NCBI RefSeq assembly: GCF_014042165.1 | Contig: NZ_JACDZE010000001.1 | Coordinates: 828,595-892,594 of the forward strand | Length of the DNA: 64,000 nucleotides | Source: Moheibacter lacus | GTDB taxonomy: Bacteria > Bacteroidota > Bacteroidia > Flavobacteriales > Weeksellaceae | Reading direction: 5' to 3' | In this document: positions 963 through 44,019 of the stretch, in pieces | How the letters are laid out: the number at the start of each line of letters is the position of its first letter | Position numbering within the stretch: the stretch's first letter is position 1 | Program-made: the position numbers and the translations under genes | Notes under the pieces: model-generated | Database searches by the model: none | Seen by the model: only the letters and a program-made list of their open reading frames with translations | Told to the model about the DNA's origin: nothing

Positions 963-2195
963 TCATTCTTGAATCTTACTAATGGCTGAAATATACGATT
1001 CCGCAGCGGCTTCCAGTGAAAAATAAGTTGCTGCTTTCTCGCTGCTTTTGCTTTGGTCTGCAAAATTAGTCTTTTTAATGAACTCCATTATTTCGGAAAT
1101 ATTATCTCTTGATTCTTTTTTATGGTCATATAAATAACAATCTTTAAAGTTTTCCAAAATCGTTTCTGTATCCCCAATTCCTTTGCTCGCAATTACCGGA
1201 AGCCCGCACAGCAGATATTCTCCCAATTTGATCGGCGCAACGCCTTGCATGCTGAAAGTCGGCTTGCGCAACGCAAATCCGATCTGAGCCACGTTCAGAT
1301 AAGCCGGAACTTCCTCTGATTTTACTTTTTTCAGGAGGATGTCCGATTTCAAATGTTCCGGAATGTTTTGTTCTGCGAATTCTAGATTTCCGGTCAGGAT
1401 CAAAAATTTGGATTTGTTCGTTTTCTGATGGTTTTCAAAAATGGCCAACATTTCCGGGAAACAATATTGGGGACCGAGCGAACCTGCATACACAAATAGG
1501 AATTCGTCTTTTATGCTCAATTCCTTTCTGATTTTCTTTCCCATTTCCGGGTCAAATTTGAATCGACTGGCATCTCTTCCATTCAAGACCACTGAAAATT
1601 TATTCCTGAAATTTTCACCGATGGTTTTCAGGTGTACCTCAATTGCCTTTTGGGATCGTGTGATAACGGCATCTGCGTTTTGAAGCATTTGGGTTTCAGC
1701 GGATTTAAACAACTGATACTGGAAACTTCCTTTTTTCAATCCGGCGAAATCAACGCGTTCTTCGATCGGCAAACCATCGGCATCAAATATCAGTTTCCCC
1801 CTAAATCCTTTGCCCCTAAATCCCCTAAAGGGGAGTTTTTTTGTTTGAATCATTGAATTGACCATCATGGCCGGAAACGTACTTCGGGGCATGAGGATGT
1901 CGATTTGGTTTTCTTGGATGTATTTTTTGAGTTTACGACCCGATGTTTTGGCGGTGACCAAACTTCCGATGGAAGCGATGGGTTTGCGCAAAATGGGAAA
2001 TGCGGTATACTTAATTCCCAATCTTTCTGCAACTTTCCGGGTTTCTTGGATTTTCTTTTCGTCTGCCCAGGTAAATTGGATGACGTGAAATCGGATGGCT
2101 TCTCTTTTGGCGATTTCGTGGAAAATCGGCATGAAAAGTCCTTCCATGTACGAAGTCTGTGGGCCGTCCCAACTGATGAAGAGGAGGTTTTTCAT
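963..2195 (-). CDS. GT4-type glycosyltransferase (410 aa)
   Basis: This predicted cytoplasmic glycosyltransferase has the length and layout of GT-B enzymes. The N-terminal half starts MKNLLFISWDGPQTSYMEGL. The C-terminal half contains FVYAGSLGPQYCFPEML and a nucleotide-sugar-binding stretch ending GEYLLCGLPVIASKGIGDT. Residues 121-134 (LPFRGFRGKGFRGK) are encoded by an intergenic-type palindromic repeat that sits in frame inside the gene, just before the strand KLIFDADG. The 5' end of this gene, with its upstream region, is the source of the repeats scattered at 2.2-5.1 kb and 18.6-20.7 kb. It likely belongs to the polysaccharide locus at 20.8-29.3 kb, from which it is now separated. The sugar specificity cannot be read. 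Confidence 0.88.
   Translation of the reverse strand: MKNLLFISWDGPQTSYMEGLFMPIFHEIAKREAIRFHVIQFTWADEKKIQETRKVAERLGIKYTAFPILRKPIASIGSLVTAKTSGRKLKKYIQENQIDILMPRSTFPAMMVNSMIQTKKLPFRGFRGKGFRGKLIFDADGLPIEERVDFAGLKKGSFQYQLFKSAETQMLQNADAVITRSQKAIEVHLKTIGENFRNKFSVVLNGRDASRFKFDPEMGKKIRKELSIKDEFLFVYAGSLGPQYCFPEMLAIFENHQKTNKSKFLILTGNLEFAEQNIPEHLKSDILLKKVKSEEVPAYLNVAQIGFALRKPTFSMQGVAPIKLGEYLLCGLPVIASKGIGDTETILENFKDCYLYDHKKESRDNISEIMEFIKKTNFADQSKSSEKAATYFSLEAAAESYISAISKIQE
1797..1835. repeat. Palindromic repeat inserted in frame in the GT4 gene
   Basis: The plus strand shows CCCCCTAAATCC, then CCCCTAAATCCCCTAAAGGG followed by GAG. The CCCCTAAA/TTTAGGGG inverted arrangement resembles intergenic repeats common in Bacteroidetes. 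Here it lies within the coding sequence and adds about 14 glycine/arginine/phenylalanine-rich residues (121-134) without breaking the frame. Confidence 0.7.
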
Positions 2196-2212
2196 GATTT
2201 AAATTCAAGTTT

Positions 2213-2220
2213 CAAAATTA
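2213..2220 (-). promoter_or_regulatory. Putative -7 box (TAATTTTG) of the GT4 gene
   Basis: On the minus strand TAATTTTG matches the Bacteroidetes TAnnTTTG box exactly and lies 18 bases upstream of the GT4 start codon. I see no good -33 TTTG at the usual spacing. The same box is carried in the duplicated upstream regions at 4257-4264 and 4768-4775, so the duplications may have copied a promoter. Confidence 0.45.
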
Positions 2221-2448
2221 TGGATATTAACGTGATTTCGATGTAAAAACATTAAGAATTAAGATAGATGCGCATTAAATAAAACTCATATTTATTTGTA
2301 ATTCACTTTATTAAGACATTTTAAGAAATCAACAAGTTGATTTAAGAATAATAGACTTAAAATCATTTAGGATACCATTTTAAACTTTTTTCAATTCAAT
2401 ACTTACTTCTGTCAGGCTGAGCGTAGTCGAAGCCTTATTCGTGCAATA

Positions 2449-2532
2449 AATGTACATTTCGACTACGCTAATGTACATTTCGAACACGCTAATGTACATT
2501 TCAAATACGCTAATGCACATTTCGACTACGCT
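2449..2532. repeat. Tandem repeat, four 21-base units
   Basis: Four consecutive units of the form AATGTACATTTCGACTACGC plus T, with a few substitutions. The other copies of the long repeat (around 4490-4520 and 5005-5030) carry a single unit, so the array expanded in this copy only. It contains the CGACTACGCT core of the intergenic palindrome that is widespread in this window. Confidence 0.9.
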
Positions 2533-2536
2533 CAAT

Positions 2537-2608
2537 GTGACAGAGGGTTGCTGTGTGACAGAGGGTCGCTGTGTGACAGAGGGTTGCTGTGTGACAGAGG
2601 GTCGCTAT
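2537..2608. repeat. Tandem repeat, four 18-base units
   Basis: Four units of GTGACAGAGGGTTGCTGT, alternating T/C at one position, directly follow the 21-base array. The copy near 5036-5066 has about two units and the one near 4520 has one. An open frame across both arrays is repeat-encoded and not a credible gene. Confidence 0.9.
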
Positions 2609-2822
2609 GAGACAACCTCAAGATTGATAGACTTAAATCGAACTGAGGTTAATTATTATTATCGTAATTATAACAATGCCCTGTTTTTCCGAAAATTATA
2701 ATCCTATTTATAATTTTATTTGATTTATCATCGGGATTTTCATTGAAAATGGAGCATGCAAAGTCCTTTCCTATACGAAGTCTGTGGGCCGTCCCAACTG
2801 ATGAAGAGGAGGTTTTTCATTT

Positions 2823-4124
2823 TTATTTTTTTATAAATTCCCAGTGCCCTCCTTTTGCTGCGCCTTCTCTTTTCAAAATACCTTTCGAAACCATATTTTT
2901 CAAATACCGCTGAATAGTTCGTTGAGAAATTTCTAATTTTTCTCCTATTGTTTTAGCAGAAGCTTTATTGTTTTGCAATAGGATTTCGATAATTTTTTGT
3001 TCAGTTTCTACGACAGTTTCTACGACAGTTTCTACGACAGTTTCTACGACAGCTTTGTTTGCAACAAAAACCATCCGAAGGAAATTTTCAGAAAAATGAA
3101 AACTGCTTTTGGGATAATTTTTTAGTATTCTAGGCACTCCCGAACCCAATTGTTCTACCAAATCCAAATCCTTAAAAATACGCATGATCTCCTGATTTCT
3201 AGGAACCGAATAGCCCGAAAAAAATTCATCCTTACTTAATCCTTCCGGTAAACCGCCATAAGAAGTGATTTCGATTCTATCCGAAAAAATCTCAAATTTT
3301 GGAGCCAATTCTTTTGTATAATCATTATGTACAAATGCATTTATCACAGCTTCCCTTAATGCAATTGGATTCCATAAACGAAATTCTTTTCTTTCTTTGG
3401 AAGTAATTTGGGTTAAGGTTTTATTTTCAATTTCCAATTTATCCAAAATGCGTTTGGTAGATTTGACCAATGATTCATAACCATATTCATTATTCTCTAT
3501 CAAATTTTCACGATCCTTTCCATCGTATTTTGCCATTTTTACGGAAAGGGAATTATGGTCAGAAAAAAGATAACCTATCAGATTATATTGACCTTCTTCT
3601 GTTTGGAACTCCAAATTTTTGGAAAACTGTGCATTGAGTCTTTTATCATTCGTTTCATAATAAATTTTTAATTGCTCAAAAGCCAAATCCTGACGAGGCG
3701 AACGAATTTTACGGATAGAATGCCGAATGCGTTTGGAGAATAAATTTTCAATCATTTTTGAAGGCATCGGTTCAGAAGAACTTCCTATACGTACAAAAGT
3801 CCCTTTTTCGGACATTCCGTATTTTCTAAGATAATAAGGCTTTTCAGGTCCGCTAGCCATAATAATTTTCAGAACAGCCTTCCCTTCTTTTTCCTGTAAA
3901 ATCAAATCAAACAATCCCAACGCAGAGGGCAGGATATTATTTTTCAACCGGTCTTTGATAAGCAATTGCACTTTATCTGCATTTTCTATACCTACCGCAT
4001 TCCCCTTATCATCTACGCCCAAATAAATAATACCGCCTTCCGCATAATTTAGAAAAGCGATGACTTCCTTTTCTAAATTCTCGGTGAGTTCTTGTTTATA
4101 TTCAATTCGGTTCGATTCTGACAT
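2823..4124 (-). CDS. AlbA/Schlafen-type DNA-binding domain protein with HATPase-like C-terminal region and HTH
   Basis: Residues about 1-125 (MSESNRIEYKQELTENLEKE, then YAEGGIIYLGVDDKGNAVGI) form an AlbA_2/Schlafen-type domain. Residues about 270-350 (REAVINAFVHNDY, EITSYGGLPEGL, QLGSGVPRI) match the ATPase-like region of RecG-C/HATPase_c_4 proteins. The last 60 residues form a winged helix. In this family such proteins are usually predicted transcriptional regulators, often on mobile DNA. Residues about 358-373 are four VVET repeats. The stop codon lies two bases before a copy of the GT4 start codon, and another GT4 5' fragment lies just upstream, so the gene looks inserted at the GT4 start. 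Confidence 0.85.
   Translation of the reverse strand: MSESNRIEYKQELTENLEKEVIAFLNYAEGGIIYLGVDDKGNAVGIENADKVQLLIKDRLKNNILPSALGLFDLILQEKEGKAVLKIIMASGPEKPYYLRKYGMSEKGTFVRIGSSSEPMPSKMIENLFSKRIRHSIRKIRSPRQDLAFEQLKIYYETNDKRLNAQFSKNLEFQTEEGQYNLIGYLFSDHNSLSVKMAKYDGKDRENLIENNEYGYESLVKSTKRILDKLEIENKTLTQITSKERKEFRLWNPIALREAVINAFVHNDYTKELAPKFEIFSDRIEITSYGGLPEGLSKDEFFSGYSVPRNQEIMRIFKDLDLVEQLGSGVPRILKNYPKSSFHFSENFLRMVFVANKAVVETVVETVVETVVETEQKIIEILLQNNKASAKTIGEKLEISQRTIQRYLKNMVSKGILKREGAAKGGHWEFIKK
3005..3052. repeat. 12-base tandem repeat coding for (VVET)4
   Basis: Four perfect copies of TTTCTACGACAG lie within the regulator gene, between the ATPase-like region and the C-terminal winged helix. The unit is a multiple of three, so copy-number changes alter linker length without shifting the frame. 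Confidence 0.95.
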
Positions 4125-4164
4125 CTTGTCAAAGATAGAAATTTCAATGTGTATTTATATGTTC

Positions 4165-4750
4165 AAAAATCGGCATAAACAATCCTTCCATATACGAAGT
4201 CTGTGGGCCGTTCCAACTGATGAAGAGGAGGTTTTTCATGATTTAAATTCAAGTTTCAAAATTATGGATATTAGCGTGATTTCGGTGTAAAAACATTAAG
4301 AATTAAGATAGATGCGCATTAAATAAAGCTCATATTTATCTGTAATTCACTTTATTAAGACATTTTAAGTAATCAACAAGTTGATTTAAGAACAATAGAC
4401 TTAAAATCATTTAGGATACTTTACTAAACTTTTGTATCAATTCAATACTTATTTCTGTCAGGCTGAGCGTAGTCAAAGCCTGCTTCATCCAATAAATGCA
4501 CATTTCGACTACGCTCAATGTGACAGAGGGTCGCTATAAGACAGCCTCAAGATTGATAGACTTAAATCGAACTGAGGTTAATTATTATTATCGTAATTAT
4601 AACAATGCCCTGTTTTTCCGAAAATTATAATCCTAATTATAATCTTCACCTGATTTTATCATCGGGATTTTTATTGAAAATGGAGCATGAAAAGTACTTT
4701 CCTGTACGAAGCTTCTGGACCATCCCAGGGGAAAAGAGGAGGTTTTTCAT
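4165..4750. repeat. Long repeat copy 2 (GT4 5' fragment plus upstream region)
   Basis: From 4239 down to about 4165 the minus strand repeats the first 75 bases of the GT4 gene (MKNLLFISWNGPQTSYMEGL onward), then diverges and stops after about 31 codons. From 4240 to 4640 the plus strand closely follows 2196-2700 with substitutions. The copy closes with a degenerate GT4 start at 4730-4750. No gene is visible in 4240-5302; the region is built of these repeats. Confidence 0.88.
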
Positions 4751-5070
4751 AATTTAAATTCAAGTTTCAAAATTATGGATATTAACGTGATTTCGATGTA
4801 AAAACATTAAGAATTAAGATAGATGCGCATTAAATAAAACTCATATTTATTTGTAATTCACTTTATTAAGACATTTTAAGAAATCAACAAGTTGATTTAA
4901 GAATAATAGACTTAAAATCATTTAGGATACTTTACTAAACTTTTGTATCAATTCAACACTTACTTCTGTCAGGCTGAGCGTAGTCGAAGCCTGCTTCGTG
5001 CAATAAATGCTCATTTCGACTACGCTCAATGTGACAGAGGGTCGCTGTGTGACAGAGGGTCGCTATTATT
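4751..5070. repeat. Long repeat copy 3 (partial)
   Basis: Begins directly after the degenerate GT4 start at 4750 and follows the GT4 upstream region almost base for base (including the -7 box at 4768-4775). It ends in two GTGACAGAGGGTCGCT units near 5066, after which the sequence is unrelated. This marks the left edge of the accessory region without GT4 homology. Confidence 0.85.
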
Positions 5071-5120
5071 CATTTCACCTATTAACCTGACCTTGGACTT
5101 TGACCAAGGCAACCAAATTT

Positions 5121-5140
5121 AACTCCTTCGGAGTTTTTTT
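5121..5140 (+). terminator. Rho-independent terminator
   Basis: AACTCC-TTC-GGAGTT followed by a run of T. No plus-strand gene lies directly upstream, so it may be a remnant of a gene lost at the repeat boundary. Confidence 0.55.
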
Positions 5141-5302
5141 GATTATATTGTTGATAATCATCACATTAAATGAAGACCTATAATGCAGTACGGGTTTAAT
5201 TTTTGTTTATGGATAAAAGAATAATGGCAGGTATTTAAAAATTGAACAGGTTGATAAAATATGTAAAAACTTAAAGGAAATTAAATGATTTAAAGTAAAA
5301 GG

Positions 5303-5506
5303 CTAATCCATGATCAGGTGTTCAAATTGCTCGTAGTTGATTCCTGTGTAAAGGCAGAAATCGTCAATGGTAAGAAATTCTTTTTCAGGTTTGTTTAATT
5401 CCTTTTTAATTTTTTGAGCTAATCTGGCACTTTGTCTATAACTTTTACCGGTTATCAATTGAATGTCCTTGGGATAAATGCAAATTCTTTTCATTGGTAG
5501 TTTCAT
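5303..5506 (-). CDS. Small hypothetical protein (67 aa)
   Basis: A basic 67-residue protein (MKLPMKRICIYPKDIQLITG start; a second ATG lies at residue 5) with predicted helices around GKSYRQSARLAQKIKKEL and a C-terminal segment FLTIDDFCLYTGINYEQFEH. The helix-turn-helix feel (a family of small Bacteroidetes proteins reads similarly) suggests DNA binding, but I recognise no named family. It stands alone on the minus strand. The 304 bases to the next gene hold AT-rich sequence with a short direct repeat (CTATACTTTAT twice) and nothing else I can name. Confidence 0.6.
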   Translation of the reverse strand: MKLPMKRICIYPKDIQLITGKSYRQSARLAQKIKKELNKPEKEFLTIDDFCLYTGINYEQFEHLIMD

Positions 5507-5810
5507 ACATTATCCAAATTTTATTCATACACTGCTCATACTCTATCTATACTTTATCTATACTTTATCCCTTCTTTGACCTTAGCTTGAAAATCTGGTC
5601 GTTCAGTAGGATTGTTTTATTGCAATATAGTCAAAAATTCCCGTTGCAGGTGTGACTTTTGGTGCGAAAAGTGTCATTTGCGGACATCTCTGCCATCGTC
5701 ATTTTTTTTCCCAGATTTAATGGATAAAATTTGTTGAACATTCAATTGAAAAGTTGCAACGAATGATTGAATCTGAAAATTAATAGAAGTTTAATTAAAA
5801 ATTTTTAATC

Positions 5811-29390: not shown

Positions 29391-29584
29391 GTCTCGACTA
29401 CCGCTCGACCTGACTTCTCGACTGTCGCTCGAAGTGACAGACCTTGACTACCGCTCGAAGTGACTTCCCAACTGTCGCTCGAAGTGACAGACCTTGAATA
29501 CCGCTCGAAGTGACTTCCCAACTGTCGCTCGAAGTGACAGACCTCGAGTACTCTTTGATTAAATCACACCCTTGTCACTTCGAG
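29391..29584. repeat. Left array of 24/26-base palindromic repeats
   Basis: About seven units of CTCGACTACCGCTCGAAGTG followed by ACAGAC or ACTT. The array ends in CTCGAGTACTCTTTGAT-(T/A)-AAATCACACCCTTGTCACTT and CGAGC, which recurs at 30346-30420. The unit contains the CTTCGAGC/GCTCGAAG palindrome that is dispersed in this window. Unit sequence drifts, so this is not a CRISPR. Confidence 0.85.
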
Positions 29585-29610
29585 CATGAGCCGGAGGCTT
29601 ACCAGCGCAG
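29582..29610. repeat. Inverted copy of a 27-base segment next to the GIY-YIG gene
   Basis: GAGCATGAGCCGGAGGCTTA followed by CCAGCGC appears here and, inverted, at 30431-30457. In the left copy it replaces the GGAG centre of the CTTCGAGC-GGAG-TCGAGAAG palindrome. It can form two small stems, AGCC-GGA-GGCT and, with the next bases, CAGC-GCA-GCTG. Confidence 0.75.
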
Positions 29611-29672
29611 CTGTCGAGAAGCGAGAAACTAAAAAATCAATAAAATTTGTATTTTTAAGTCAAACTAAACAT

Positions 29673-29996
29673 ATGAAAACCTATTATGTCTACATCTTAA
29701 AATGTAAAGATGGTACCTATTACACTGGGATGACCAATAATCTGGAAAGAAGACTAAATGAACACAATAGTGGATTGAATAAAGAATGTTATACCTTTAA
29801 TAGAAGACCGGTAGAATTGGTATTTCATGAAAGTTTTATGGACGTAAACCAAGCAATATTTTTTGAAAAAAAGATTAAAAAATGGTCCAAAGCAAAAAAA
29901 GAGGCTATCATCAATGGGAATTGGAATGAGTTGAAGACTTTGTCGGAATGTCAAAACAATTCGCATTCTAAAAATTTTAATCAGGATAATGAATAG
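29673..29996 (+). CDS. GIY-YIG nuclease domain protein between direct repeats
   Basis: I start at 29673 (MKTYYVYILKCKDGTYYTGM) because upstream codons lie in repeat sequence. The 107-residue protein is a stand-alone GIY-YIG domain. It shows YVYIL and YYTGM for the GIY and YIG strands, LERRLNEHN with the catalytic arginine, and FFEKKIKKWSK with the metal-binding glutamate. It is not near a tRNA. It lies between two direct copies of a roughly 75-base segment, which is the arrangement of the other GIY-YIG loci in the window. Confidence 0.9.
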   Translation: MKTYYVYILKCKDGTYYTGMTNNLERRLNEHNSGLNKECYTFNRRPVELVFHESFMDVNQAIFFEKKIKKWSKAKKEAIINGNWNELKTLSECQNNSHSKNFNQDNE

Positions 29997-29997
29997 G

Positions 29998-30430
29998 GTC
30001 TCGACTCCGCTCGACCTGACAAACCTCGACTACCGCTCGACCTGACAAACCTCGACTACCGCTCGACCTGACTTCTCGACTACCGCTCGACCTGACTTCT
30101 CGACTAACGCTCGAAGTGACAGACCTTGACTACCGCTCGAATTGACTTCTCGACTAACGCTCGAAGTGACAAACCTCGACTACCGCTCGAAGTGACAGAC
30201 CTTGACTACCGCTCGACCTGACTTCTCGACTACCGCTCGAAGTGACAGACCTTGACTAACGCTCGACCTGACTTCTCGACTGCCGCTCGAAGTGACAGAC
30301 CTCGACTACCGATCGAAGTGACAGACCTTGACTACCGATCGAAGTGACTTCCCAACTGCCGCTCGAAGTGACAGACCTCGAGTACTCTTTGATAAAATCA
30401 CACCCTTGTCACTTCGAGCGGAGTCGAGAA
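29998..30430. repeat. Right array of 24/26-base palindromic repeats
   Basis: About sixteen units alternating between CTCGACTACCGCTCGACCTG plus ACTT (24) and CTCGACTAACGCTCGAAGTG plus ACAGAC (26). Its last 75 bases duplicate the end of the left array. The units are imperfect and there is no spacer, so it is a tandem satellite. 29997-30523 holds no gene. Confidence 0.85.
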
Positions 30431-36780: not shown

Positions 36781-37073
36781 GTTTAAAGGTAGAATGGCGG
36801 GAAAAAGCAATTGAGGAACTTCAAGCCATCTATGACTATATTTATTTCCGAAGTCCACAAAATGCCGAAAATGTTGTAAATACTATATTGGATTTAGGGA
36901 ACTCTTTAGGCGACTTTCCAAACAAATTTCCGATAGAACCTATACTGAATCAAGAACACACCCGATTTTTTACACAATGGAGTTATAAAATCATTTATCG
37001 TGTAGAATCTGAAAGAATTATTATTCTTAGGGTTTTTGACAGCAGACAGAATCCTGATAAATTACTTTCCTAA
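36777..37073 (+). CDS. ParE/RelE-type toxin (98 aa)
   Basis: The start is GTG at 36777, overlapping the antitoxin stop (GTGA), typical of co-translated pairs. The protein shows the ParE-like pattern: KVEWREKAIEELQAIYDYIY with the basic first helix, a central SLGDFPNKFPIEPIL, and a final strand YKIIYRVESERIIILRVFDS followed by RQNP. The C-terminal arginine/asparagine tail is usual for plasmid-stabilisation toxins of this family. Downstream lies a truncated GIY-YIG copy on the opposite strand. Confidence 0.88.
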   Translation: MSLKVEWREKAIEELQAIYDYIYFRSPQNAENVVNTILDLGNSLGDFPNKFPIEPILNQEHTRFFTQWSYKIIYRVESERIIILRVFDSRQNPDKLLS

Positions 37074-37251
37074 CATCAATTTTTGTTTGGGTTTGAAAAC
37101 TAAACACCAACTCCCAATCATCGGATCTAGAAGTAAATGATGTAGAAAACGCTTTATCTAAATGTAATTTCAATCGAAATGATACATCGGCCGTTTCTCC
37201 AATATAATATCGGTTCAACTTTTTACTGTATAAAATATATAGAAAATGCAT
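37027..37251 (-). pseudogene. Truncated second copy of the tRNA-Phe-linked GIY-YIG gene
   Basis: From the ATG at 37251 the sequence is nearly identical to the full copy at 37333-37617 for about 55 codons (MHFLYILYSKKLNRYYIGET onward). It breaks off after FQTQTK near 37084 into unrelated sequence shared with the end of the toxin gene. The catalytic glutamate region is missing, so it should be inactive. Confidence 0.9.
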
Positions 37252-37294: not shown

Positions 37295-37334
37295 TGGTGC
37301 CTCCAGCCCCGAAGCGTCGGGGGAACCAGGGACT
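37295..37334 (-). pseudogene. tRNA-Phe 3' fragment with hairpin insert
   Basis: The minus strand repeats the T-arm and acceptor 3' strand of tRNA-Phe, GTCCCTGGTTC ... CTGGAGGCACCA. The five bases GATTC of the T-loop/stem are replaced by a 16-base palindrome, CCCCGACGCTTCGGGG (37307-37322). No 5' half exists, so it is not a tRNA. Confidence 0.85.
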
Positions 37335-37617
37335 ATTTTTTTTCTTTTAAGACTTCCTTCAATATTTCAGGATTTCCCATTATTTTTTCAATGAACTTTT
37401 TACTTTTCATTCTTTTGATGAATTTTTCTAGATATAAGGAATCCTCTTTGGTTTGGGTTTGAAAACTAAACACCAACTCCCAATCATCGGATCTAGAAGT
37501 AAATGATGTAGAAAACGCTTTATCTAAATGTAATTTCAATCGAAATGATACATCGGCCGTTTCTCCAATATAATATCGGTTCAACTTTTTACTGTATAAA
37601 ATATATAGAAAATGCAT
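37333..37617 (-). CDS. GIY-YIG nuclease domain protein downstream of tRNA-Phe
   Basis: I start at 37617 (MHFLYILYSKKLNRYYIGET); an upstream in-frame start would lie inside the tRNA. The 94-residue protein is a single GIY-YIG domain: FLYIL and YYIGE strands, a helix with arginine (VSFRLKLHLDKA), and LEKFIKRMKSKKFIEKI carrying the catalytic glutamate. It begins 44 bases after the tRNA's last base, just beyond its terminator, so expression probably needs read-through. A tRNA fragment and a truncated second copy follow. Confidence 0.9.
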   Translation of the reverse strand: MHFLYILYSKKLNRYYIGETADVSFRLKLHLDKAFSTSFTSRSDDWELVFSFQTQTKEDSLYLEKFIKRMKSKKFIEKIMGNPEILKEVLKEKK

Positions 37618-37653: not shown

Positions 37654-37660
37654 TAGTAAG

Positions 37661-37733
37661 TGGTGCCTCCAGGAATCGAACCAGGGACACAAGGATTTTC
37701 AGTCCTTTGCTCTACCAACTGAGCTAAGGCACC
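37661..37733 (-). tRNA. tRNA-Phe (GAA)
   Basis: A complete cloverleaf of 73 bases without encoded CCA. The acceptor stem is GGTGCCT/AGGCACC, the D-arm GCTCAGTTGGTAGAGC, the anticodon loop CTGAAAA with anticodon GAA, and the T-arm CCTGGTTCGATTCCTGG, with discriminator A. Confidence 0.97.
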
Positions 37734-42151: not shown

Positions 42152-42244
42152 GTGCCATAATAATTTTAAAGAAATTTCATTAGAATTTTAATTTAAGTTT
42201 GGTGGATATAAAAATTCATGTATATTTGCAGTCCCAAAATGACT

Positions 42245-42318
42245 GATCCGGTAGTTCAGTTGGTTAGAATACCTGCCTGTCACGCAGGTGGTCGCGGGTT
42301 CGAGTCCCGTCCGGATCG
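42245..42318 (+). tRNA. tRNA-Asp (GTC)
   Basis: A 74-base cloverleaf without encoded CCA: acceptor GATCCGG/CCGGATC, anticodon arm CCTGC-CTGTCAC-GCAGG with anticodon GTC, T-arm GCGGGTTCGAGTCCCGT and discriminator G. Its 3' part is the source of the fragments at 42636, 43012, 43388 and 43764. Confidence 0.96.
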
Positions 42319-42322
42319 CATC

Positions 42323-42350
42323 AAGCACTTCAGAAATGAGGTGCTTTTTT
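42323..42350 (+). terminator. tRNA-Asp terminator (copied in each cassette)
   Basis: AAGCACTTC-AGAAAT-GAGGTGCTT (one G-T pair) followed by T-run. The same hairpin recurs before each following GIY-YIG gene, near 42699, 43075 (first pair shared with the fragment) and 43827; near 43450 a related variant starts ACCACTTC. Confidence 0.9.
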
Positions 42351-42362
42351 ATTTTAGTTCTT

Positions 42363-42629
42363 ATGGCCAGTTTTATTGTCTACATCATTTATTCTGAATC
42401 TTTGGACATCTATTACAAAGGTTACACAAACAACTTAGAAATTCGATTGGAACAACACCTCAGAGGTAAAAGTCAATTCACTTCCCAAACCAACGACTGG
42501 CGTTTGGTTTTCACCAGAAGTTTTGAATTGAAATCAGAAGCTTTGAAATATGAAAAAATGCTCAAACGTCAAAACCATCAATATTTGAAATGGCTCATCG
42601 ATGGGGATTTAAATGATTTGAACAATTGA
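42363..42629 (+). CDS. GIY-YIG nuclease domain protein, cassette copy 1
   Basis: I start at 42363 (MASFIVYIIYSESLDIYYKG). Upstream in-frame codons lie in the tRNA and its terminator and are not credible coding. The 88-residue protein has FIVYII and YYKGYTNN strands, LEIRLEQH with the catalytic arginine, and ALKYEKMLKRQNHQ with the glutamate. It starts 45 bases after tRNA-Asp, just past the terminator. Transcription would need read-through. It differs from copies 2-4 at a few residues. Confidence 0.9.
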   Translation: MASFIVYIIYSESLDIYYKGYTNNLEIRLEQHLRGKSQFTSQTNDWRLVFTRSFELKSEALKYEKMLKRQNHQYLKWLIDGDLNDLNN

Positions 42630-42635
42630 TAATTT

Positions 42636-42693
42636 CCTGCCTGTCATCTCGGCTCAGCCGAGACGGGTTCGAGTCCTCCCGGCTCAGCCGGGA
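42636..42693 (+). pseudogene. tRNA-Asp 3' fragment with two hairpin inserts, unit 1
   Basis: CCTGCCTGTCA (anticodon stem and loop) and CGGGTTCGAGTCC (T-arm) are kept. Two segments of the tRNA, CGCAGGTGGTCG and CGTCCGGATCG, are replaced by TCTCGGCTCAGCCGAGA (42647-42663) and TCCCGGCTCAGCCGGGA (42677-42693). Each insert is a perfect palindrome around a central C. No acceptor 5' half is present, so it is not a tRNA. Confidence 0.9.
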
Positions 42694-42737
42694 CATCAAG
42701 CACTTCAGAAATGAGGTGCTTTTTTATTTTAGTTCTT

Positions 42738-43007
42738 ATGGCCAGTTTTATTGTCTACATCATTTATTCTGAATCTTTGGACATCTATTACAAAGGTTAC
42801 ACAAACAACTTAGAAATTCGGTTGGAACAACACCTCAGTGGCAAAAGTCAATTCACTTCTCAAACCAAAGATTGGTGTTTGGTTTTCACCAGAAGTTTTG
42901 AATTGAAATCAGAAGCTTTGAAATATGAAAAAATGCTCAAACGTCAAAACCATCAATATTTAAAATGGCTCATCGATGGGGATTTAAACGAATTAAATAT
43001 TCAGTAA
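42738..43007 (+). CDS. GIY-YIG nuclease domain protein, cassette copy 2
   Basis: An 89-residue GIY-YIG domain nearly identical to copy 1, with the catalytic residues intact (YYKGYT, IRLEQH, KYEKML) and the ending DLNELNIQ. It is one unit of 376 bases downstream of copy 1 and follows the first tRNA-Asp fragment and a copied terminator. Near identity and fixed spacing point to recent tandem amplification or ongoing homogenisation. Confidence 0.9.
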   Translation: MASFIVYIIYSESLDIYYKGYTNNLEIRLEQHLSGKSQFTSQTKDWCLVFTRSFELKSEALKYEKMLKRQNHQYLKWLIDGDLNELNIQ

Positions 43008-43011
43008 TTTT

Positions 43012-43069
43012 CCTGCCTGTCATCTCGGCTCAGCCGAGACGGGTTCGAGTCCTCCCGGCTCAGCCGGGA
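43012..43069 (+). pseudogene. tRNA-Asp 3' fragment with hairpin inserts, unit 2
   Basis: Same content as the fragment at 42636, including both palindromes, displaced by 376 bases. Confidence 0.9.
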
Positions 43070-43113
43070 CATCAAGCACTTCAGAAATGAGGTGCTTTTT
43101 TATTTTAGTTCTT

Positions 43114-43383
43114 ATGGCCAGTTTTATTGTCTACATCATTTATTCTGAATCTTTGGATGTGTATTACAAAGGTTACACAAACAACTTAGAAATTCGATTG
43201 GAACAACACCTCAGTGGTAAAAGTCAATTCACTTCTCAAACCAACGACTGGCGTTTGGTTTTCACCAGAGGTTTTGAATTGAAATCAGAAGCTTTGAAAT
43301 ATGAAAAAATGCTCAAACGTCAAAACCATCAATATTTGAAATGGCTCATCGATGGTGATTTAAACGAATTAAATATTCAGTAA
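43114..43383 (+). CDS. GIY-YIG nuclease domain protein, cassette copy 3
   Basis: An 89-residue copy with all catalytic positions present. It differs from copy 2 at a few residues (SLDVYYKGYT, NDWRLVFTRGF). Frame and length are kept in spite of many synonymous changes between copies, which suggests the proteins are, or were until recently, under selection. Confidence 0.9.
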   Translation: MASFIVYIIYSESLDVYYKGYTNNLEIRLEQHLSGKSQFTSQTNDWRLVFTRGFELKSEALKYEKMLKRQNHQYLKWLIDGDLNELNIQ

Positions 43384-43387
43384 TTTT

Positions 43388-43445
43388 CCTGCCTGTCATC
43401 TCGGCTCAGCCGAGACGGGTTCGAGTCCTCCCGGCTCAGCCGGGA
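43388..43445 (+). pseudogene. tRNA-Asp 3' fragment with hairpin inserts, unit 3
   Basis: Same content as units 1 and 2. It is followed by ACAAAAACCACTTC, a variant of the terminator whose stem ends are changed together (ACCACTTC/GAGGTGGT), so pairing is kept. Confidence 0.88.
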
Positions 43446-43489
43446 CAAAAACCACTTCAGAAATGAGGTGGTTTTTTTTATTGAATCTT

Positions 43490-43759
43490 ATGGCGAATTT
43501 TTTGGTCTACATCATTTATTCTGAATCTTTGGATGTGTATTACAAAGGTTACACAAACAACTTAGAAATTCGATTGGAAGAACACCTCAGTGGCAAAAGT
43601 CAATTCACTTCTCAAACCAAAGATTGGTGTTTGGTTTTCACCAGAAGTTTTGAATTGAAATCAGATGCATTGAAATATGAAAAAATGCTCAAACGTCAAA
43701 ACCATCAATATTTGAAATGGCTCATCGATGGGGATTTAAACGAATTAAATATTCAGTAA
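43490..43759 (+). CDS. GIY-YIG nuclease domain protein, cassette copy 4
   Basis: An 89-residue copy starting MANFLVYIIYSESLDVYYKG. The 5' end and the preceding 25 bases differ from copies 1-3 (TATTGAATCTTATGGCGAAT) but match the fifth remnant. The catalytic pattern is intact. This is the last complete copy of the array. Confidence 0.9.
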   Translation: MANFLVYIIYSESLDVYYKGYTNNLEIRLEEHLSGKSQFTSQTKDWCLVFTRSFELKSDALKYEKMLKRQNHQYLKWLIDGDLNELNIQ

Positions 43760-43763
43760 TTTT

Positions 43764-43821
43764 CCTGCCTGTCATCTCGGCTCAGCCGAGACGGGTTCGA
43801 GTCCTCCCGGCTCAGCCGGGA
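43764..43821 (+). pseudogene. tRNA-Asp 3' fragment with hairpin inserts, unit 4
   Basis: Same content as the other units, followed by a copy of the terminator and the fifth GIY-YIG remnant. Confidence 0.88.
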
Positions 43822-43864
43822 CATCAAGCACTTCAGAAATGAGGTGCTTTTTTTATTGAATCTT

Positions 43865-43879
43865 ATGGCGAATTTTATA
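43865..43879 (+). pseudogene. Fifth GIY-YIG remnant (start codon only)
   Basis: ATGGCGAATTTT repeats the start of copy 4 and then turns into unrelated sequence at about 43878. This gives the right-hand end of the array. Confidence 0.75.
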
Positions 43880-44019
43880 GGATCAAGAACAAAATTCTTC
43901 TATCCTAATTGCACGTCTGCTATGAACATAATTTTAGAAACCACCTCATTTTTTCACCAAACATTCATCATTTTCTAAAAAATGGAGTCCATCTATCTTT
44001 GGCTTCGCAAAGCAACATC

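Follow-up and report, generated by a model that had tools for sequence, protein, structure and literature searches.

What kind of genetic element is repeated behind the tRNA-Asp gene of Moheibacter lacus? In a 64,000-nucleotide stretch of contig NZ_JACDZE010000001.1 (positions 828,595 to 892,594; hereafter the window, whose numbering we use throughout), this gene is followed by a series of small GIY-YIG nuclease genes. A first-pass annotation, made from the letters of the window, had read the series as copies of a small selfish unit that uses the 3' end of a tRNA gene as its target and carries a copy of that target along. We find that the phenomenon is much wider than the window array, and comparisons of genomes show that the units are mobile, being present or absent at the tRNA genes of close relatives. 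The mobility in the original proposal thus gains support by comparison, but the carried tRNA copy is broken by palindromes and other layouts exist. We lean, with confidence a little better than even, towards the view that these are tRNA-targeted, homing-endonuclease-like mobile units; the activity of the nuclease, its target and the role of the palindrome are the parts of this view that we infer.

The array at tRNA-Asp

The host gene of the array is an intact tRNA-Asp(gtc) gene (42245..42319; this and all other features of the array lie on the + strand). Its terminator, AAGCACTTCAGAAATGAGGTGCTT plus a T run (42320..42355), recurs slightly changed behind every broken tRNA half. Four GIY-YIG genes follow: gene 1 (42363..42629; 88 amino acids), gene 2 (42738..43007; 89 amino acids from its ATG, or 98 from an earlier in-frame ATG), gene 3 (43114..43383; 89 amino acids) and gene 4 (43490..43759; 89 amino acids). 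The fifth is a remnant consisting of the first 12 bases (43865..43876), which it has in common with gene 4 before the two diverge. Tandem Repeats Finder gave a period of 376, 4.2 copies and 95% matches for 42319-43878, and the ATG-to-ATG spacings are 375, 376, 376 and 375. By tRNA call, repeat search, open reading frames and Pfam, the array described in the first-pass annotation is therefore real.

Each unit was also said to repeat the 3' part of the tRNA together with its terminator. Both are present, but the tRNA part is no plain copy: positions 38-49 and the stretch after position 62 are each swapped for a perfect 17-bp palindrome, TCTCGGCTCAGCCGAGA and TCCCGGCTCAGCCGGGA. In the first broken 3' half (42636..42694), CCTGCCTGTCA is followed by a palindrome (42647-42663), CGGGTTCGAGTCC and a further palindrome (42677-42693). 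The palindromes recur every 376 bp, at 43023-43039 and 43053-43069 in the second half (43012..43070), at 43399-43415 and 43429-43445 in the third (43388..43446), and at 43775-43791 and 43805-43821 in the fourth (43764..43822).

The motif TAnnTTTG, which we take to be the Bacteroidetes -7 box, occurs once on the + strand of 42201-43900, as TATATTTG before tRNA-Asp (42221..42228; motif search). This agrees with the proposal that the nuclease genes have no promoter of their own, and makes the tRNA promoter the presumed source of read-through into the array. Among the four window copies, dN/dS was 0.14-0.34, with changes mostly at third codon positions, so the genes look kept as proteins; between the window gene and that of a congener (G003, see below) dS was saturated, and we did not use the ratio.

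All four window proteins pass the Pfam GIY-YIG model (PF01541; 48.7-54.5 bits, cut-off 22.6), and none matched an NCBIfam model at E<=0.01. Y7, Y18, R28, H32 and E64, which we take to be the active-site positions of GIY-YIG nucleases, are among the invariant columns of nine aligned family members; on that assignment the catalytic residues are kept, as had been claimed, and some other members (e.g. L015 and L031) are changed near these positions. The nearest solved structures to an AlphaFold model (pLDDT 83.4) were UPF0213 (1zg2; sequence E 2.2e-12, Foldseek 1.0e-5) and SLX1, a nuclease of branched DNA by its entry titles. Homing-endonuclease families gave weak matches. So did the PADLOC defence models (best 5e-5, with no more than 5 of 13 members matching any one model and the window protein matching none).

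Occupied, empty and rearranged tRNA sites

We compared six genomes of the genus, two of them less than 82% complete: G000, which holds the array, and G001-G005. The tRNA-Asp site carries four units in G000, a single unit preceded by a degenerate scar in G003, and a scar without a gene in G001. No unit was found in the available stretch of G002 or G005, where the contig of G005 ends after ~0.6 kb. At tRNA-Phe of G001 we read, by eye, an apparent truncated start of the nuclease gene. The states thus differ among the six members of the genus, and the same array with the same edges is not found in all relatives.

In G004 a phage-integrase gene (Pfam) lies downstream of tRNA-Asp (L042, G004:C7:44472-47599; L043) and the 3' end of the tRNA recurs 13.4 kb away, which suggests an integrative element at tRNA-Asp of this sister species. 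That integrative elements use the same tRNA gene would fit a cassette that serves its host as a site guard, occupying or cutting their attachment sites. However, decay of the cassettes is frequent, and by eye the cassettes of L066, L228 and L249 stand beside island-like tRNA 3' halves, so an island is not kept out by a cassette; we regard a guarding role as very improbable.

Pairs of relatives in other genera give presence and absence at closer range. One such pair, G086 and G073 of one genus, differs by 339 bases at the tRNA-fMet 3' end, which G086 carries and G073 lacks; the flanks agree at 95.6% over 1.58 kb and at 96.2% over 0.69 kb. This insert is bounded by 15-bp direct repeats, TCTCGCTACTAAGCT, made up of the last nine tRNA bases and six more, and contains a terminator unlike that of G073, a gene and a broken tRNA half with palindromes. 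Over the 68 bases behind the unit, which reach to the next gene, G086 matches the empty site exactly. The terminator now beside the tRNA is therefore new, and the terminator and flank behind the unit are those that match the empty site. With the tRNA-Asp site of the genus, this pair supplies the variation in presence and copy number, with precise edges, that the first-pass annotation had suggested looking for.

In another genus, the tRNA-Arg locus of G045 is ~832 bases longer than that of G119, with flanks that are 94.8% alike over 1.45 kb and 90.7% alike over 0.77 kb. The order is the native tRNA-Arg 5' part broken by TTCCGATTTCAATCGGAA, an intact tRNA, two units, the second with a broken nuclease gene, and then, from position 55 on, the native 3' part and its flank. 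We rejected an insertion at the tRNA 3' end for this pair, because the tRNA-Arg gene is split into halves. A comparison of G080 with G119 gave a similar picture, with ~455 extra bases and more diverged flanks. Two tRNA-Val loci within one genome, G027, hold units that are 96.6% alike over 522 bp, in flanks that are otherwise unlike except for a 22-bp match.

Three layouts recur. In the common one, tRNA, terminator, gene, broken 3' half and terminator follow each other. The mirror layout, found for 16 genes at Glu, Ser, Pro, Arg, Ile2 and fMet tRNAs, runs from the promoter side through a broken 5' half with palindrome and the gene to an intact tRNA, and in 6 of the 16 the stop codon lies within the tRNA. 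The third layout has no gene, being broken 5' pieces that precede an intact tRNA. Among 119 tRNAs with 250 bases available upstream, 33 had a 15-base match to their own 5' part there; of the 22 such matches that we inspected (21 with sequence), most have a palindrome and some stand in tandem (L170, L210, L216), and one, at L111, is a real neighbouring tRNA. At L255, as at L170, L210 and L216, a broken tRNA 5' part and its palindrome are repeated in tandem, without a gene, before the intact tRNA. An intact tRNA is present in all linked loci.

The units that we measured are 339-471 bp long and hold one GIY-YIG gene each, with no site-specific integrase. At L070 in G128 every 471-bp unit also holds a whole tRNA-Val(gac) gene, giving three copies in all. 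A move of this unit from tRNA-Val(tac) to tRNA-Val(gac) was considered and rejected: an intact tRNA-Val(tac) lies directly upstream, and the gac tRNA is a passenger in the unit. Across 46 arrays with at least two matches, the intact gene was the first only in 18, the last only in 6 (p=0.023), both in 21 and neither in 1. Both newer units beside the tRNA and expression of the first gene only would fit this bias.

Distribution and nuclease lineages

A profile built from 13 cassette proteins (A1) matched 72 of 120 genomes of the family at E<=1e-6. For the phylum we used the count at E<=1e-20 (~75 bits), 135/395 genomes and 78/171 genera, because looser limits admit ordinary UPF0213-like genes; such genes are included in the 185/395 genomes and 100/171 genera obtained at E<=1e-15. 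The 197 loci analysed came mostly from the high end of the score lists and are hence not random, with L156, L158, L171 and L183 excluded as duplicates. Strict linkage to a tRNA gene followed the score, at 126/156 loci scoring at least 75, 5/9 between 65 and 75, and 2/22 below 65. Among the 156 loci with a full-length gene and a score of at least 75, the gene follows a tRNA in 116, precedes an intact tRNA in 10 and falls outside the strict distance rule in 30. We read 24 of these 30 by eye, and all 24 adjoin tRNA-derived sequence, several at a contig end. Two of the 24, L239 and L265, have by eye only a short tRNA 3' end beside the cassette. At L092, one of the other six, a tRNA-Arg lies 182 bases upstream. 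At L066, L228, L249 and L205, cassettes lie beside tRNA 3' halves whose 5' part is swapped for other sequence, as after island integration. Among phylum genomes at E<=1e-20 for which a gene scoring at least 75 was fetched, 70/81, from 46 genera, have a strictly linked gene. When the window protein was used to scan all phyla, a search sensitive to close relatives only, four came up, under titles of Bacteroidetes groups; three of them (Weeksellaceae, Fluviicola, Saprospiraceae) sit at tRNA-Asp, the fourth at a cat tRNA.

Cassettes were found at tRNA genes of sixteen kinds; of the 17 labels, one is an aberrant call. Another account of the window array, an ordinary tandem duplication of a host gene behind a tRNA that does not move, draws on the facts that unequal crossing over can yield tandem copies and that the copies look to be under purifying selection. 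It is scarcely credible, however, given the sixteen tRNA kinds and the two G027 loci with unlike flanks, and the empty and occupied pairs contradict it.

We built a tree from 132 linked full-length genes with a score of at least 65, one per locus and tRNA; linkage cannot be derived from the tree rows themselves, the aberrant L101 Gln call was kept as its own label, and the alignment has few columns, so that many forks are weak. tRNA isotype required 40 changes on this tree (least possible 16), against a mean of 97 and a minimum of 90 in 200 shuffles. The nearest protein in another family sat at the same isotype for 53 of 131 proteins (expected 10.1). A same-tRNA relative from another family was also closer than any other-tRNA relative from the protein's own genome in 45 of 49 cases, the former being drawn from a larger candidate pool. 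By these measures the cassette proteins group by tRNA type across bacterial families.

Grouping by isotype could also be expected of a ribonuclease or toxin-like system in which the nuclease acts on the adjoining tRNA as RNA and the downstream tRNA-like hairpin regulates it. Each window gene does sit behind a copy of the terminator, and the downstream RNA is strongly structured (fold z = -4.95 for 42627-42730, terminator included). Yet the empty sites, scars, decayed copies and tandem units look like those of a mobile element, duplication of tRNA and terminator needs a DNA insertion step, and the nearest folds are DNA nucleases or UPF0213. We consider an RNA-directed system improbable.

The M. 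lacus assembly has ten GIY-YIG places at E<=0.01: four at tRNA-Asp, two at tRNA-Phe, two at tRNA-Met and two away from tRNA. The tRNA-Phe(gaa) gene (37660..37733, - strand, as are the features of its cassettes) hosts a second array of the family in the window. A gene of 94 amino acids (37333..37617) is followed by a tRNA-Phe 3' part with the palindrome CCCCGACGCTTCGGGG in the T loop (37307-37322), and by a truncated second copy (37027..37251). The tRNA-Phe and tRNA-Met cassettes share the plan of the tRNA-Asp units, with different palindromes, which at tRNA-Met are TCCGCCGCGGCGGA and CTCCGAAATTTCGGAG. One of the two genes away from tRNA, from 29673 of the window, adjoins no tRNA and is flanked, within 29393-30385, by arrays of a CTCGACTACCGCTCGAAGTGACAGAC-type repeat and of CACTTCGAGCGGAGTCGAGAAG motifs; the other is in locus L010. 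Several short tandem repeat arrays, with periods of 11, 12, 15, 18 and 21, occupy 1794-5570 of the window.

Palindromes, mechanism and relation to known systems

A copy of at least 10 bases of the tRNA was present in 152 of 188 regions, counting identical regions once, excluding the aberrant L101 Gln and including fragments down to 30 bits. The acceptor 3' strand is intact in 112, the T arm in 50 and the anticodon arm in 5, one of which, L070, is counted only because the next real tRNA lies in range. A perfect GC-rich palindrome occurs in 98 of 132 broken-half regions, where shuffling predicts 6.1, and in 4 of 20 control regions behind unlinked low-scoring genes. We sorted the palindromes by their arms, which gave a class to 105 of the 132 tree rows. 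Arm class changed 12 times on the tree, against a shuffled mean of 40 and a minimum of 34 in 200. The TCCGCC/TTCGCC class holds 17 of 18 fMet rows, and the TCCCGA class all 7 Ala and all 8 Gly rows. The first window palindrome recurs letter for letter in Fluviicola, at a different place in the tRNA. Palindromes with the same arms vary in length (TCCGCC 14-16, TCTCG 15-20, TCCCG 15-30), and their place within the tRNA varies as well (27-43, 38-49, 50-57, 57-61). Variable length and place with constant arms would fit recognition as a hairpin.

This bears on a second explanation, that the unit is a hairpin-processing element, like REP/RAYT (repetitive extragenic palindromes and their associated transposases) or IS200/IS605 but with a GIY-YIG enzyme. 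The substrate of the nuclease would be the palindrome of the broken tRNA copy, folded into a single-strand hairpin or cruciform, and the break would excise, duplicate or move the unit. The intact tRNA would then be no cleavage target, which would explain how carriers survive. Several features point this way. Arm classes track the nuclease lineage and not the tRNA type: of 21 Asp rows, 9 are TCTCG, all in the window's clade, 9 are TCCCG, in other Asp clades, and 3 are unclassed. The varying length and position of same-arm palindromes are unlike a fixed-spacing duplex site, and intact tRNAs are preceded by gene-free broken 5' copies, of which several hold a like palindrome and some are arranged in tandem. 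SLX1, a nuclease of branched DNA by its titles, is with UPF0213 the nearest fold. The split tRNA-Arg of G045, together with the gene-free broken 5' copies, lowered our confidence in the homing reading and raised it in the hairpin reading. On the other side, there is no Y1 transposase, no free palindromic copy is shown moving, similar stems occur as terminators, and some regions have no perfect palindrome. We judge a hairpin-processing element unlikely, though well worth weighing.

We also considered whether the palindromes are genome-wide REP repeats, and rejected this. TCCCGA-armed hairpins number 3-29 per genome in 12 genomes (L136-L155, G027 and others; reversed control 0-1), and a looser CCGNC pattern gave no clear picture.

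The reading that we prefer, a homing-endonuclease-like unit aimed at tRNA genes, takes the unit to be a terminator, one single-domain GIY-YIG gene (~80-100 amino acids) and a palindrome-broken tRNA fragment. The nuclease would be made by read-through from the tRNA promoter and would cut a cassette-free tRNA gene, or perhaps the hairpin of a donor unit. Recombination through the shared tRNA and terminator sequence would then copy the unit in, in the fashion of a homing endonuclease. A circle carrying the palindrome-broken tRNA fragment could give all three layouts, by crossover on one, the other or both sides of the palindrome, and recombination between units would make an array grow or shrink. 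More speculatively, the palindrome might be a hairpin read by the nuclease or a recoded, uncuttable site, and might stop the broken copy from acting as a tRNA or as a recombination partner.

Several observations weigh against this reading. Five of the six genomes of the genus (G000, G001, G002, G003, G005) share one tRNA-Asp sequence, from which that of G004 departs at a single base, so a nuclease that cuts the tRNA gene of non-carriers should cut that of its carrier too; self-immunity by a recoded resident tRNA was therefore rejected within the genus. GIY-YIG is the sole Pfam match in 88-89 amino acids and the model shows one domain, with no separate DNA-binding module, whereas homing endonucleases of the I-TevI type have such a module besides the catalytic domain. 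The occupied and empty pairs may record either gain or precise loss, the latter by recombination between repeats. No close relatives were found in phage, plasmid and IMG/VR collections, and carriage by phage or plasmid was rejected, the best matches in phage and plasmid collections being weak (33-40 bits) and IMG/VR giving none. Host family also clusters on the tree, with 51 changes against a shuffled mean of 84; Ile2 shows no clustering (500/500 shuffles as low) and Pro only weak clustering (48/500). As for the palindromes, by the rule used 34 of the 132 regions have no perfect one; arm classes were defined after the sequences had been seen, with seven rows (six Arg and L006) classed by hand; and the tie between arm and lineage would also be expected from simple inheritance with the cassette. 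Away from cassettes, TCCCGA hairpins are followed by a T run at 15 of 21 sampled sites and are thus terminator-like, and the arms may partly reflect a favoured stable stem.

A full-text literature search, with subscription papers and preprints mostly outside its coverage, found no description of this layout. Integrative elements use the tRNA 3' end as an attachment site, and the cassettes resemble them in having that end as target and, in G086, as part of a direct repeat at the edges. They differ in lacking an integrase and in their size and content. Single-domain proteins of the UPF0213 kind are the best match to the cassette proteins by both sequence and fold, but the low-scoring members of the search, presumably ordinary UPF0213-like genes, are not beside a tRNA at 20 of 22 loci and have a palindrome behind them in 4 of 20 cases.

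SegB is a free-standing GIY-YIG homing endonuclease of T-even phages. According to the part of that study available to us, segB is amplified segmentally with tRNA-Tyr, likely via recombination between short homologies, tRNA association is frequent in phages, and SegB has no apparent preference for particular isotypes (PMC13096335). The likeness lies in a GIY-YIG gene adjoining a tRNA gene and in arrays, which in G128 include the whole tRNA-Val(gac), and, as expected of free-standing homing endonucleases, cassette sites are empty in close relatives (G086/G073, G045/G119 and tRNA-Asp in the genus). SegB is a phage system, however, whereas ours is chromosomal with lineages that group by isotype; no broken tRNA half with palindrome is described in the SegB text consulted (PMC13096335), and we liken the two by layout, not by sequence kinship.

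In fungal mitochondria, mORFs combine an endonuclease gene with a carried C-terminus of atp6, atp9, cox2 or nad3, the atp9 mORF being GIY-YIG (PMC3630166, available in part). There too the host gene receives an endonuclease unit together with a replacement for its 3' end, and the native 3' end is displaced downstream. We see this displacement, in architecture only, at tRNA-fMet, where the last nine tRNA bases, terminator and flank stand identical behind the unit, and at tRNA-Arg, with the native 3' part behind the units. The mORFs differ in belonging to organellar protein genes rather than bacterial tRNA genes, and the accessible part of that source describes no lineage-specific palindrome and no mirror form (PMC3630166). 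With REP/RAYT systems, as far as the consulted part of PMC3733652 goes, the cassettes share a palindrome type that goes with the nuclease lineage. They differ in having a GIY-YIG gene in place of the Y1 tyrosine transposase, and palindromes inside broken tRNA copies beside the gene.

We would class the units as a new variant of homing-type elements. We assign them to no named family, because cleavage of the empty allele is inferred only and the protein has no DNA-binding module. Tentatively, and with less than even confidence, we also put forward a wider claim, that they are bacterial mobile elements of a class of their own. In these, a single-domain GIY-YIG nuclease would be paired with a hairpin specific to its lineage and would move among tRNA genes of the same isotype. 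The element would enter from either or both sides, always leave an intact tRNA with gene-free broken copies alongside, be spread through the phylum and multiply tRNA genes as a by-product.

If this is true, the chromosomes of Bacteroidota hold what is, to our knowledge, one of the smallest mobile units known, 339 bp at the minimum seen here and with one gene. Such units would aim at essential genes and yet leave these whole, and would offer a test bed for how a nuclease is tolerated in a host that bears its own target. They would link phage SegB, organellar mORFs and REP-like hairpins, and would provide a route by which tRNA genes multiply, as in the three tRNA-Val(gac) copies of G128.

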